Source: Helicobacteraceae bacterium (GTDB lineage: Bacteria; Campylobacterota; Campylobacteria; Campylobacterales; Sulfurimonadaceae). Taken from it: DNA of 35,184 bases. The notes beneath the pieces are model-generated. The model saw nothing but the letters and a program-made list of their open reading frames with translations, did not search any database and had not been told where the DNA came from. Location: the NCBI GenBank assembly GCA_027052175.1, contig JALUFE010000076.1, positions 1-35,184 of the forward strand, given 5' to 3'. The position numbers and the translations under genes are program-made. How positions within the stretch are numbered: the stretch's first letter is position 1; every line of letters begins with the position of its first letter. Shown in pieces: positions 26,156 through 33,199 of the stretch.

Positions 26156-28843
<2,688 letters not shown>

Positions 28844-29914
28844 TCAGATGACTATAGGCATTATGACCGTTTTGAAATTGTTTTCCTGGAGTACGAAAGG
28901 ATGATTGCTGTCGTTTAAACCCATTAGAAATTCAGGTGTTTCGATGCTGTTTAAAAAATCAAGAATATATCTGCTGTTTACTGCCAAGATAAAAGATTCT
29001 TCAAAGTTTGCAGGATAGAGAAGCTCTGTTTTTGCTTCATTGTTGTCGTCACTGAGGGATTCGAAAACTATTTTTTCATTCAAAAACGTGAGTTTGACGT
29101 CGTTGGAGACAGTCGTAATTTGTTTAAGAGCATCAATGATCTCTTTTTTTGGCAAAGTAAGACTTTTTTTTGTCTCTTTTGGAATGATGCGGGAATATTC
29201 GGGAAACTTTCCGTTTATCAATTTTGTAAAGAAGGTATATTCGGTCGATACGATGATAAGATGTGTTTCGTCATAAAACATCGAAATGTCATCGAAAAAG
29301 AGTTTTTGTATCTCCAATATGGCTTTTTTCGGGATAATAATTGAAAGTTCTGCATTTTGTTGTTCATTTTGAAGTGTAACGATGGCAAGTCTTCTTGTAT
29401 CTGTCGAGACGAAATTGATACTTTGCTCTTTAATATCTATAAGCGCACCGTTTAATTCGAATTTTGGATTGTTGGTATCGATGGCCGGAGTGATTTTTTT
29501 TAAAGCATCTATGAGTTTGTGGGAATTTATGGTGAGACTCGGTTTGTTTTCGTATGAAGGAAATTCTGGAAACTGTTGTGGAGAGAAGATAGGAAGCTTA
29601 AATTTTGAATTTCCCTGTTTAATGAACAAGGTGTCATGAAGCAGTTCCAGTTCTATCTTGTCGTTTTTGAGGATTTTTACGATATCAAGCAGTTTTCTTC
29701 CGTTGGCAGTGGCTTGTCCATTTTGAAGTATCTCGACGTTTTGTGTTGAGACAAAAAGACCTATGTCATAGTCGGTAGCTTTTATATTGAGTGTGTTGTT
29801 TTGTGCATCGAGAAAAATATGAGAGGTTATGAGTGAAGTATCTTTTTTTTCAAGAAAAGGCGTTGCATGTATAAGGATATTTTCAAGAATATTTTTTTCA
29901 ATGAGTACTTTCAT
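28844..29914 (-). CDS. dnaN: DNA polymerase III beta sliding clamp
   Basis: The 356-residue protein starts MKVLIEKNILENILIHATPFLEKKD and shows the clamp's three-fold repeat pattern, with FVSTDTRRLAIVTLQ and SRYILDFLNSIETPEFLMGLND as typical segments and LPIVI-like MPIVI at the C-terminus. It encircles DNA and tethers the replicative polymerase. GAGGG precedes the ATG. Its upstream region is the AT-rich unwinding tract of the origin, so its promoter and the origin overlap. Confidence 0.97.
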   Translation of the reverse strand: MKVLIEKNILENILIHATPFLEKKDTSLITSHIFLDAQNNTLNIKATDYDIGLFVSTQNVEILQNGQATANGRKLLDIVKILKNDKIELELLHDTLFIKQGNSKFKLPIFSPQQFPEFPSYENKPSLTINSHKLIDALKKITPAIDTNNPKFELNGALIDIKEQSINFVSTDTRRLAIVTLQNEQQNAELSIIIPKKAILEIQKLFFDDISMFYDETHLIIVSTEYTFFTKLINGKFPEYSRIIPKETKKSLTLPKKEIIDALKQITTVSNDVKLTFLNEKIVFESLSDDNNEAKTELLYPANFEESFILAVNSRYILDFLNSIETPEFLMGLNDSNHPFVLQENNFKTVIMPIVI

Positions 29915-29923
29915 TTCGTTTCC

Positions 29924-30054
29924 CTCTTATATATTTATATTTTTAGTAGGTAGTAGTAGGGGGAGTTGAATACGTGAACAACATACAAGTACTCCCTTGA
30001 TAAGGCTTTTTTGTATGTGAATGAACTCTCTTTCAACTTTCACACCTATTCACT
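29924..30054. other. oriC2: oriC2-like origin: unwinding element, DnaA-trios and DnaA boxes
   Basis: On the plus strand the order is an AT-rich tract (29924-29943), TAGTAGGTAGTAGTAG (29944-29959), a G-rich patch, then a DnaA-box-like CGTGAACAA (29973-29981, reverse orientation). TGTGAATGA at 30016-30024 is the exact complement of TCATTCACA, the Helicobacter-type box. ACTTTCACA (30036) and CTATTCACT (30046) are weaker boxes, 10 bases apart. AT-rich DNA, 5'-TAG-3' triplets, GC-rich spacer, box is the published layout of a basal unwinding element. A dnaA-dnaN location fits bipartite origins in this phylum. Confidence 0.75.
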
Positions 30055-30131
30055 TGGGAAATTATATCTTTTTTTTTTATCAGTGCCAAACTTGAGTTTT
30101 CAACATTTTTCGTGACACCGTTTTTGTTGGG

Positions 30132-31451
30132 TCAGGCACTTTCTGAAGAGGAGGTCAGTTTATTGGTCAGTTCTTCTATTTTTGTTTTGAAATCTTCGTC
30201 GTTTTCGATGAGTTCGTTGATCTTTTTGAGCATATGGCTGATGGCGGTGTGATCTTTCATGCCAAAGTACTGAGCAAGCTGCGGCATTGTGTTTTGTGTA
30301 AGTTCGCGACTGAGATAGATGGCGATACGTCTTGCATAGACGATGTTTTTGCTTCTGCTTTTACTCTTAATTTCACTGGGTTTGATGTTGAGGTCTTTGG
30401 CGACCGTTTTGGTGATACTGTCGAGTGTGAGATTGGCTCTGTTTTCCTGAATCTGGTCTTTGAGTATCTGTTTGGTGAATTCGAGCGTGATGTCTACATG
30501 CATTAATTGCGAGTAGGCATGGAGTTTGGAAAGTATCCCTTCTATTTCACGTACATTGCTCTCTATTACCGTTGCTATGTAGTTTACGATATCATCGTCG
30601 AGTTTTACTTTGTTGATTTCGCATTTTTTCTTGATGATGGCGATTTTCGTTTCGAGTTCTGGTGGTTGAATGTCGGCTACAAGACCCCATTCGAAGCGGC
30701 TTTGCAGCCGTTTTTCGAGTCCGCCTATCTGTTTTGGGTGTTTGTCGGCTGTGAGGATGATCTGTTTTTTTTCGCTTTTGAGTGCTTCGAACGTATGAAA
30801 AAACTCCTCTTGGATCGTGTCCTTGTTACTGAGAAACTGTATATCGTCTATGAGAAGTACATCGCATTTTCTGTATTTCTCTTTGAAGCGCTCCATCGTC
30901 TGGTTGCGCACGTGGCGAAGAAAATCGTTGAGAAACTGTTCGACGGTCGTGTAGATGACGTTTTTTCCTCTGTTTTGCAGTACATTTCCTGCTGCTTGCA
31001 TCAGGTGGGTTTTGCCAAGCCCTACTCCTCCGTAGATAAAGAGTGGATTATAAACTTCTCCCGGTTTTTCACTTACGCTTTTTGCTGCTGCATAGGCGAA
31101 CTGGTTCGAACCGCCGACCATAAAGTTGTCGAATGTGTGAGAGGGATTGAGCATGGAATTGACGATTTTTTTTGTCGTTTCACTTTTTTTTGTTCGCCCG
31201 TTGAGTGTTTTGGCGTTTCTTTCGACTATTTTTACATTGATTTTTTTTCCTTTTACTTCAAAAAGATGTTCAAGTTTGTTTTTGTAGCGATTCTTTATCC
31301 AGCTCGCTATGAGTGGATTCGGTGCGACGAAGAGTGCAGTTGTGTCATTTGATCGTTTTGCATCGTATTGGAGTTGTTTGATATAACGGTTGTATTCTAT
31401 CTCAGGTATTTCCTCTTTGAGCATATTGAGGACTTCATTGGCTATTTTCAT
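30132..31451 (-). CDS. dnaA: Chromosomal replication initiator DnaA
   Basis: DnaA binds origin boxes and opens the duplex. I start at MKIANEVLNMLKEEIPEIEY (439 residues, GAG 3 bases before the ATG); the track's start at 31499 would place the promoter and a DnaA box inside the gene. AAA+ motifs are YGGVGLGKTHLMQAAGN (Walker A) and DVLLIDDIQFLSNKD (Walker B), with LQSRFEWGLVADIQPPELETK following. The C-terminal DNA-binding signature reads MPQLAQYFGMKDHTAISHMLKKI in the usual helix-turn-helix. It is the upstream gene of the dnaA-dnaN-gyrB series. Confidence 0.97.
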   Translation of the reverse strand: MKIANEVLNMLKEEIPEIEYNRYIKQLQYDAKRSNDTTALFVAPNPLIASWIKNRYKNKLEHLFEVKGKKINVKIVERNAKTLNGRTKKSETTKKIVNSMLNPSHTFDNFMVGGSNQFAYAAAKSVSEKPGEVYNPLFIYGGVGLGKTHLMQAAGNVLQNRGKNVIYTTVEQFLNDFLRHVRNQTMERFKEKYRKCDVLLIDDIQFLSNKDTIQEEFFHTFEALKSEKKQIILTADKHPKQIGGLEKRLQSRFEWGLVADIQPPELETKIAIIKKKCEINKVKLDDDIVNYIATVIESNVREIEGILSKLHAYSQLMHVDITLEFTKQILKDQIQENRANLTLDSITKTVAKDLNIKPSEIKSKSRSKNIVYARRIAIYLSRELTQNTMPQLAQYFGMKDHTAISHMLKKINELIENDEDFKTKIEELTNKLTSSSESA

Positions 31452-31474
31452 AATCTCATTGCACTTGTTTTTTA

Positions 31475-31564
31475 TGTGAATAATACTGAAATTATTCATA
31501 AATCGAGGTTAAATCAGGCGTATTTACAGGACTTTTTCAATGTGAATGGATATTATGTGAATAA
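31475..31564. promoter_or_regulatory. oriC1: oriC1-like DnaA-box cluster and dnaA promoter
   Basis: TGTGAATAA at 31475 and 31556 and TGTGAATGG at 31541 are same-orientation DnaA boxes (complement TTATTCACA). The first overlaps a minus-strand TATTAT (31485-31480), the likely dnaA -10, and forms an 8-bp-arm inverted repeat with ATTATTCA at 31491-31498. This fits DnaA autoregulation and an upstream origin half. Confidence 0.65.
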
Positions 31565-31775
31565 CTGATCTTACGCACCATATCATAAACTCGAAAAGAG
31601 AAAACCTTTGTCTTGCAGCTGGCACTTTCTCTTCTCGCCTTTTGGGTTGCTTTTGTGACATACGATTGCTGCGTTACATTTTCCTCAGTGTAGCTACGGC
31701 TATGCTTCGTCGGTGTAACTTGCACTTGGATATCGCTAAAAGCACTCAGTTTATGATATGGTGTGTAAGGTCAGT
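31564..31775. mobile_element. 212-bp MITE-like element M1 with 28-bp inverted ends
   Basis: The ends, 31564-31591 and 31748-31775, are inverted repeats matching at 26 of 28 positions (left begins ACTGATCTTACGCACC). Nested inverted repeats lie inside, including CGAAAAGAGAAA with a near-complement at 31626-31637 and GTTACA/TGTAAC around GTGTAGCTACGGCTATGC. No ORF is plausible. Flanks read GAATA and GAATG, a possible imperfect target duplication. Its left end shares one base with a DnaA box. Confidence 0.7.
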
Positions 31776-31869
31776 GAATGACTTTTTTTGTCTTTGAAAA
31801 GATTCTCTATCTGTTTGGTTATAGAATCAGATATAATAATATTTAATGATTATAAACAAATTAAAAAAA
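31776..31869. other. AT-rich stretch between M1 and parS
   Basis: Very AT-rich, with a TATAAT at 31832-31837 but no gene after it. It could be an unwinding tract for the upstream origin half or simply spacer. Confidence 0.35.
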
Positions 31870-31885
31870 TGTTTCACATGAAACA
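31870..31885. promoter_or_regulatory. parS: parS-like ParB binding site
   Basis: TGTTTCACATGAAACA differs from the canonical 16-base parS TGTTTCACGTGAAACA at one central position. It lies about 0.4 kb upstream of dnaA beside the origin, where chromosomal parS sites normally cluster. parA and parB are not in the window. Confidence 0.8.
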
Positions 31886-31901
31886 TGAGCAAAGGGATAA
31901 A

Positions 31902-32202
31902 GTTATTACTCCACCAATCAATTATCTAAATCAGCAATGCAGTGATTTTGTTCATAATCAAGGCAATTTCTTGCAGGTGTAGCCGTAGCTAAGTTTGGAA
32001 ATTTTTTTGCGAAATGTCGCAAGCTTTCACTCCTCCCATAGGGCGTTATAAAGAGAGCTTTACTCTTCGTTAGATAACCTTCACCGTAGCGCCCGCTACG
32101 CTGAAGGTTATCTGCCTTGATTAAAACTCTCTTGATAACGCTGAGACTACTTAGGAGTTTTGCAAGAAGTCTATTGAGTTAGTTTGTTGGTGGAGTAATA
32201 AC
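31902..32202. mobile_element. 301-bp fold-back element M2 with perfect 16-bp inverted ends
   Basis: Perfect inverted ends GTTATTACTCCACCAA (31902-31917) and its complement (32187-32202) enclose further nested arms. AATCAAGGCA pairs with TGCCTTGATT (32112-32121), and GCGTTATAAAGAGAG pairs with a copy at 32127-32141 with one mismatch. At the centre, 32072-32113 is a 20-bp stem with one mismatch and a 2-base loop. The right part contains a 51-base block identical (inverted) to 35021-35071. No coding frame is plausible. Confidence 0.75.
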
Positions 32203-32402
32203 ACCGTCAGATATGCCTTTTTCTTGTTGCCTTTTTAGAGATGAGATGATTTTCGCTCATCTTTGTACGGAAATGACTTGAAGTAGAATGATTACGACTG
32301 CATCGCTTTTCATACAAATGCGGGCTAGACGCATCTCATTAGATATGAAATTATTTCCTTCGCATTACTTAAAAGTTAGGCGGAGTATAAGTAAAATAAG
32401 AA
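32203..32402. other. Non-coding gap before hisF
   Basis: About 200 bases without a supported gene. The only structure I see is a 7-bp hairpin AGATGAG/CTCATCT at 32239-32262. It is not an obvious terminator. Confidence 0.4.
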
Positions 32403-32408
32403 TATAAT
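32403..32408 (+). promoter_or_regulatory. -10 box of hisF
   Basis: TATAAT lies 29 bases before the chosen hisF ATG. The predicted transcript start near 32415 leaves the ORF track's TTG at 32420 almost at the 5' end, favouring the ATG at 32438. Confidence 0.5.
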
Positions 32409-32437
32409 TTTTTCATATTTTGTACATTGAGATAAAA

Positions 32438-33199
32438 ATGAAAAATTATTTTGCTAAACGAATCATCCCTTGCCTGGATGTAAAAGACGGACGGGTGGTA
32501 AAAGGTGTCAATTTTGTCGGTCTCAGAGATGCCGGTGATCCTGTCGAAGTTGCAAGACGTTATAATGAAGAGGGTGCGGATGAACTAACCTTTTTGGATA
32601 TAACGGCTTCGAGCGACAATCGCGATACGATTGTCGATATCGTAGCGAAAGTGGCGAAGGAGGTCTTTATTCCACTCACGGTGGGCGGAGGTATCCGCAA
32701 GCTCGATGATATCTATAAGCTTCTCAATGTCGGTTGTGACAAAGTGAGTGTCAACTCTGCCGCGGTCAAGCGTCCCGAACTTATCAACGAAGGGGCGAAG
32801 CGCTTTGGAAGCCAATGTATCGTCACGGCTATCGATGTCAAAAAACATGGTGAGAGATACCATGTCTATCTCAACGGCGGGCGAGTGGACACAGGCATCG
32901 ATGCGGTTGCATGGGCGAAAGAGGTGGTCGATCGAGGCAGTGGCGAGATCCTTTTGACCTCTATGGATACAGACGGCACGAAAAAAGGTTTTGAACTCGA
33001 TATCACTCAACAGATAAGCGAAGCGGTGCACGTTCCTGTCATTGCAAGCGGAGGAGCGGGAACTATGGAACATATCAAAGAGGCATTTGAAATAGGTGCC
33101 GATGCAGCGTTGGCGGCAAGCATTTTTCACTATCATGAAATAGATATTATGGAGCTCAAACACTACTTGGATAAAAACGGAATCCCTGTTCGCCTATGA
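32438..33199 (+). CDS. hisF: Imidazole glycerol phosphate synthase subunit HisF
   Basis: HisF, with the glutaminase HisH, cyclises PRFAR to imidazole glycerol phosphate and AICAR in histidine synthesis. The 253-residue barrel starts [23 protein letters not shown], with catalytic Asp11 in CLDVKDG and the second catalytic Asp in VTAIDVKK; phosphate-binding loops GGGIR and ASGGAGT are visible. GAG sits 6 bases before the ATG. No other his gene is nearby. AICAR links to the purine genes. It overlaps the next gene by ATGA. Confidence 0.97.

Follow-up and report, generated by a model that had tools for sequence, protein, structure and literature searches.

The interval between dnaA and dnaN (29915-30131) of an uncultured Sulfurimonas relative raises two questions: whether the chromosome is opened there by DnaA, and how a single extra base within the sequence to be bound should be understood. 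The window, that is, the whole stretch of 35,184 nucleotides analysed here, contains both genes, and a first-pass annotation had placed a probable opening site between them. This placement is supported by the order and polarity of the parts, a 13-bp spacing, phylum-wide conservation, a nearby turn of the GC skew and the in vitro unwinding of the dnaA-dnaN interval of relatives (PMC5043019). It is very probable that the site is the oriC2 of a Sulfurimonadaceae-type bipartite origin, in which positions 29927-29981 constitute a basal unwinding module (DnaA-trio/BUS) opened by a DnaA filament. Sequence, geometry, conservation and skew were observed for the site itself, while unwinding by DnaA is ascribed to it by analogy with relatives. 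The element is of a known kind, the DnaA-trio/BUS class. The probable opening site is thereby fixed to within approximately 50 bp, and a single unwinding module is compared across the phylum. The features are collected in Table 1.

Table 1. Features of the proposed origin region, in window coordinates.
Feature	Position	Strand	Basis or remark
dnaN (sliding clamp)	28844-29914	-	Pfam DNA_pol3_beta domains
AT-rich part of DNA unwinding element	29927-29943		sequence, nearest-neighbour energy
DnaA-trio run	29944-29959	+ (strand to be bound)	sequence; kept in family and most of phylum
Trio 5	29944-29946		
Trio 4	29947-29949		
Slipped base	29950		
Trio 3	29951-29953		
Trio 2	29954-29956		
Trio 1	29957-29959		
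G-rich spacer between boxes and trios (C-rich on dnaA-coding strand)	29960-29964		sequence
Trio-proximal box of tandem pair, decayed, GTATTCAAC	29965-29973	-	core TTCAA; overlaps TTGTTCACG box by one base
DnaA box loading the trios, TTGTTCACG	29973-29981	-	perfect TTCAC core, 13 bp from trio 1
DnaA box, exact H. pylori type, TCATTCACA	30016-30024	-	related TTCATCACA-type site at about the same offset in relatives
Distal DnaA box, outward, ACTTTCACA	30036-30044	+	GTGAA core conserved at about -84
Distal DnaA box, outward, CTATTCACT	30046-30054	+	GTGAA core conserved at about -94
Probable dnaN promoter, TTGGCA-17-TATAAT	30061-30089	-	11/12 matches; -10 at 30061-30066
dnaA (initiator)	30132-31451	-	Pfam Bac_DnaA, Bac_DnaA_C, DnaA_N
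Upstream DnaA boxes of probable oriC1	31475-31483, 31541-31549, 31556-31564, 31773-31781	-	box search

Trio run, DnaA boxes and flanking DNA

The plus strand at 29944-29959 reads TAGTAGGTAGTAGTAG, a trio run of TAG TAG G TAG TAG TAG, which is exactly the five TAG units with one extra G described in the first-pass annotation. The succession of AT-rich DNA, trio run, G-rich DNA and reverse DnaA box, likewise described there, was confirmed in its order and polarity on this strand at 29927-29981. The 16-mer TAGTAGGTAGTAGTAG occurs a single time in the 1.78-Mb assembly, even when one mismatch is allowed, and its backwards-read control has zero occurrences in the same assembly. For TAGTAGTAG, the expectation from dinucleotide shuffling is 0.05 per window, and the pattern CTAx3-N0-2-TACTA gave 1 match in the window versus 0 in 100 shuffles. 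Moreover, the combination of a TTCAC box core with trios at the right spacing was reached by 0 of 3000 dinucleotide shuffles of the dnaA-dnaN intergenic region. A lenient trio pattern in the published style, (NTN)x3, has no discriminating power by itself, giving 10 matches against 8.6 expected by chance. A BUS is defined by at least three trios with a conserved middle adenine; five TAG units are present here, three of them in unbroken register beside the box. An Rfam scan of 29800-33000 gave no match above threshold.

Matches to the E. coli-type DnaA box are no commoner in the window than expected by chance, and the boxes were therefore called by the Epsilonproteobacterial core, TTCAC (PMC5043019), and by spacing. 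In total, the dnaA-dnaN interval holds four TTCAC cores. The box closest to the trios with a perfect core, TTGTTCACG, is separated from trio 1 by a spacer of 13 bp (29960-29972) and is correctly oriented; the BUS rule places a DnaA box in the right orientation at most 16 bp from the first trio, and 13 bp is the modal spacer among published BUS predictions (PMC8287927). Its core is present at the exact offset of -19 in 57 of 64 non-redundant relatives. For the proximal member of the pair, at -11, the exact core (TATTCAC box) was found in 39 of the 64, and the decay to TTCAA is common to the two other genus members with sequence. A BUS with a single box is allowed, and in the B. subtilis pair the upstream box alone is needed for strand separation (PMC8287927), a report with which the stronger conservation at -19 than at -11 is in agreement. 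Further from the trios, the exact Helicobacter-type box of the first-pass annotation is real, yet it lies 56 bp away and is not the abutting box, a place taken by TTGTTCACG. The two boxes that had been described as weaker and one helical turn apart are indeed 10 bp apart from start to start (ACTTTCACA and CTATTCACT), but by the TTCAC rule their cores are perfect (PMC5043019). Midway between the distal and proximal boxes, at an offset of about -38 to -34, TAGG is strongly conserved in the family, with GG in 84-88%; in the window the corresponding place, 29993-29997, carries AGGGA on the minus strand.

On the dnaN side the trios are flanked by AT-rich DNA, and on the dnaA side by G-rich DNA and the inverted DnaA boxes. 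By nearest-neighbour energy, the 30-mer of lowest stability in the intergenic region begins at 29926 and ranks 21 among 35,154 window positions. The G-rich run GGGGGAG occupies 29959-29965; in relatives, positions -5 to -1 are 62% G+C within an otherwise AT-rich region.

The two sides of dnaA

The start of dnaA at 31451 is preferred over 31499, since, in relatives, the matching sequence ahead of residue 17 is often interrupted by stop codons. TTCAC-core boxes are found on both sides of the gene and the trio run with its unwinding element lies between dnaA and dnaN, the arrangement by which an Epsilonproteobacterial bipartite oriC is recognized. The gene order ruvC-dnaA-dnaN-gyrB is typical of Epsilonproteobacteria with exceptions and has been lost in Helicobacter (PMC5043019). 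Here, dnaA-dnaN-gyrB is kept and hisF, rather than ruvC, is found upstream of dnaA. Because that order is typical and not universal (PMC5043019), hisF in this position does not exclude a bipartite origin. The two genus relatives L002 and L003 also carry hisF (32420-33199 in the window) upstream of dnaA.

The GC skew changes sign near the site. It was followed in the window, on one 178-kb contig of a close relative and in spaced samples of a complete relative, the source assembly being divided into 131 contigs. In the window the cumulative minimum is at 28772 and the trio run at 29944, so that the check proposed in the first-pass annotation found the minimum within 1.2 kb of the trio and not far from it. 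On the 178-kb contig of the nearest relative, the minimum (80,443) and the trio (77,403) are approximately 3 kb apart. In the complete relative the skew is mostly positive over the first 1.1 Mb and negative beyond it; the trio lies at 1555 and dnaA at the start.

The first-pass annotation had also named the dnaA-hisF side as the place where unwinding might be found instead. The window's most easily melted DNA, at 31825-31865, does lie upstream of dnaA, and instability alone therefore does not single out the trio site. Opening in the dnaA-hisF interval, with the trio side reduced to an auxiliary DnaA cluster, would draw on this most AT-rich and least stable DNA and on three close DnaA boxes with a fourth in the same interval. 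However, no trio run is present there, the window's only TAGTAGTAG and the skew minimum are on the dnaN side, and much of the interval is built of repeated mobile-like elements. Furthermore, when DnaA-dependent unwinding was mapped in vitro for S. denitrificans, A. butzleri and W. succinogenes, only the dnaA-dnaN side was opened (PMC5043019). Opening on the hisF side is accordingly regarded as most improbable, and the dnaN side is retained as the probable site of unwinding.

Several repeats were observed around the origin region. A repeat some 194 bp long at 31980-32173 (within 31902-32202), of which other contigs hold more than 10 good copies, is enclosed by the arms of another inverted-repeat element; this part of the dnaA-hisF (oriC1) interval has the appearance of miniature mobile elements nested in one another. 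A second repeat family is represented at 31564-31775, with terminal inverted repeats of about 28 bp and about nine further copies in the assembly; the DnaA boxes 31556-31564 and 31773-31781 lie at its two ends. Between dnaN and gyrB, a short inverted repeat at 28659-28715 is related to the ends of the 31980-32173 repeat.

Conservation of the module and the dnaN leader

Relatives were sampled as 80 from named records plus two sets of genomes drawn from the order and phylum. The combined score for box and trio was reached by 113 of 126 dnaA-downstream regions, some of these loci being near-duplicates, versus 0.05 expected per set from shuffles. Among 40 representative genomes of 21 families the module is plain in most and degenerate in some, such as L156, L157, L164 and L167; it was not found in three of the 40 (L136, L144 and L152), and the stretches taken from these three also held no dnaN. 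The same module is present downstream of dnaA in most of the Campylobacterota families sampled. Across the 64 non-redundant relatives, trios 1-3 show 100% conservation of T and A, positions that the search pattern itself had fixed, and the trio block carries a mean information of 1.73 bits per column versus 0.49 in the upstream part.

It is necessary to consider whether the TAG run could instead be conserved as part of the dnaN promoter or leader, as a signal for transcription or translation. The run begins 42-51 nt upstream of the dnaN start codon throughout the family, and a TATAAT is located at a fixed distance upstream of it. Nevertheless, the box-to-trio offsets of -19 and -11 are constant in 59 of 78 sequences, whereas the distance from the trio to the dnaN ATG varies over this range. 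In family f18, where dnaN is much further away, the trio keeps its place relative to the box rather than to the start codon, and in the H. pylori-like L154 and L155 the trio and DnaA box persist without dnaN downstream. The probable -10 element is, moreover, about 100 bp upstream of the run. Since the distance to the box is fixed, that to dnaN varies and the module persists without dnaN, a dnaN signal does not explain the run, and this alternative is given very little credence in comparison with an unwinding module.

The element does lie in the leader, because the probable dnaN -10 is upstream of the trios. Of the 50 family members whose upstream sequence is long enough, 42 have an exact TATAAT at 106-107 nt from the start of the trio, and in these relatives two GTGAA box cores, pointing outward and spaced by about 10 bp, come after it. 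The DNA between TATAAT and trio is constant in length, yet its mean identity is only 43%. This fixed distance, despite poor sequence conservation, suggests a constraint on length or helical phase. The unwinding module is thus probably contained in a dnaN leader of about 140 nt, with the distal boxes at the expected transcription start, as judged from the sequence. The first-pass annotation had located the opening site in the dnaN promoter/leader; the leader holds, but the promoter itself does not, the module being downstream of the conserved TATAAT. Transcription of dnaN would run through the module, since it lies in the leader, and we infer that DnaA on the distal boxes may repress dnaN.

The register slip

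Within the run, trios 1-3 are in register, in agreement with the published minimum of at least three trios, and trios 4-5 are out by one base. That the extra G is an error of sequencing or assembly was considered and rejected, the slip being common to relatives. A full run accompanies 95 distinct DnaA sequences of the family. In 76 of them the linker between the third unit and the final TACTA is two bases long, and in 19 it is one base; a one-base linker keeps the trio register, and a two-base linker shifts trios 4-5 by one. On the DnaA tree at least seven changes of the linker state are needed, and well-supported branches force five of these; throughout the family the slipped state is the prevailing one. 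Outside the family, slipped runs were found in family f6 (genera g55 and g75), and none appeared in the remaining families examined. The extra G is therefore not noise, and the family-wide register slip is the sole unusual, mildly surprising trait of the element. A supplementary figure of PMC8235120, which lists Epsilonproteobacterial trios, may already show it.

The slip runs against strict trinucleotide spacing, since in B. subtilis such register was important in vitro: strand separation became slower when 1 bp was deleted within the trios and recovered with a deletion of 3 bp (PMC6669920). Either trios 1-3 suffice, so that a natural slip is tolerated, or the filament steps over it. According to the former, which is compatible with the oriC2 reading, the extra G would be a neutral irregularity and trios 4-5 would be remnants. 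Trios 1-3 are described as the essential ones in B. subtilis (PMC10721633), both linker states occur and at least five changes between them are forced, all of which make neutrality a serious candidate, at close to even chances. Against neutrality, TACTA or TATTA follows the linker in all 78 distinct family sequences scored first, while the preceding one or two bases vary freely, and only linker lengths of 1 and 2 were found, never 0 or 3, within a search pattern that required TA[CT]TA within 3 bases. It is tentatively proposed, as an idea rather doubtful at present, that the Sulfurimonadaceae and some related lineages keep a selected one-base slip, the filament being in register for three protomers and then stepping over the extra base to two more trios. 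In the cryo-EM model DnaA captures only two of the three bases in a trio (PMC10721633), and with one base per trio thus left free, an uncaptured linker of two bases is conceivable. If selected, the slip would show that strict three-base spacing has exceptions in nature, and it might serve as an inherent weak point or a pause separating filament nucleation from bubble extension. In the literature surveyed, strict counting in threes rests on the deletion experiment with B. subtilis DnaA; the conserved one-base slip is a case supplied by nature on which such strictness can be tested.

The following process is envisaged for the module. DnaA would bind the box at 29973-29981, with assistance from the decayed box next to it and from the distal boxes (30016-30054). 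Subsequently, a filament of ATP-DnaA would grow over the 13-bp spacer onto the plus strand and capture the TAG trios from 29959 towards 29944, after which the AT-rich DNA at 29927-29943 would open for helicase loading. Trios 1-3 would be held in fixed register with the box; we infer that the one-base displacement of trios 4-5 is tolerated by the filament, probably as a two-base uncaptured linker. When the window DnaA was aligned to B. subtilis DnaA as it stands in the BUS structure 8btg, the trio-capturing residues of B. subtilis DnaA, whose roles in base capture are described in PMC10721633, were all identical or conservatively replaced (N187 N, I190 L, I193 V, R202 K, K222 K, E228 E).

Four known systems come closest to the site. 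The oriC2 of Sulfurimonas denitrificans (PMC5043019) belongs to a related lineage and shares the dnaA-dnaN interval, the AT-rich unwinding element, the reverse-oriented box proximal to it, an outward distal box, the TTCAC core and a DnaA-trio, which has been noted in A. butzleri and W. succinogenes as well. It differs in that unwinding and footprints were measured there, whereas the window is known from its sequence, and in having ruvC rather than hisF upstream of dnaA. The B. subtilis BUS (PMC6669920, PMC8287927, PMC10721633) has tandem boxes, of which the counterpart nearer the trios is decayed in the window, and shares with it a GC-rich gap, trios of 3'-GAT-5' that point away from the boxes and AT-rich DNA beyond them, and its base-capture residues are kept in identical or conservative form; the TTCAC core, the one-base overlap of the boxes and the off-register trios 4-5 are peculiar to the window in this comparison. 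In H. pylori oriC2, where the trio was shown to be necessary for opening (PMC8235120), paired ts1-ts2 boxes, a GC-rich gap, about five trios and AT-rich DNA are likewise present, but in H. pylori-like genomes the trios keep their register (CTACTACTGTTACTA in L154), the proximal box is stronger and dnaN is not adjacent. Finally, the Campylobacter jejuni oriC (PMC6052347) also has twin boxes overlapping by 1 bp before the unwinding element, between dnaA and dnaN; its trio is degenerate and it has no GC-rich gap, whereas both are clear in the window.
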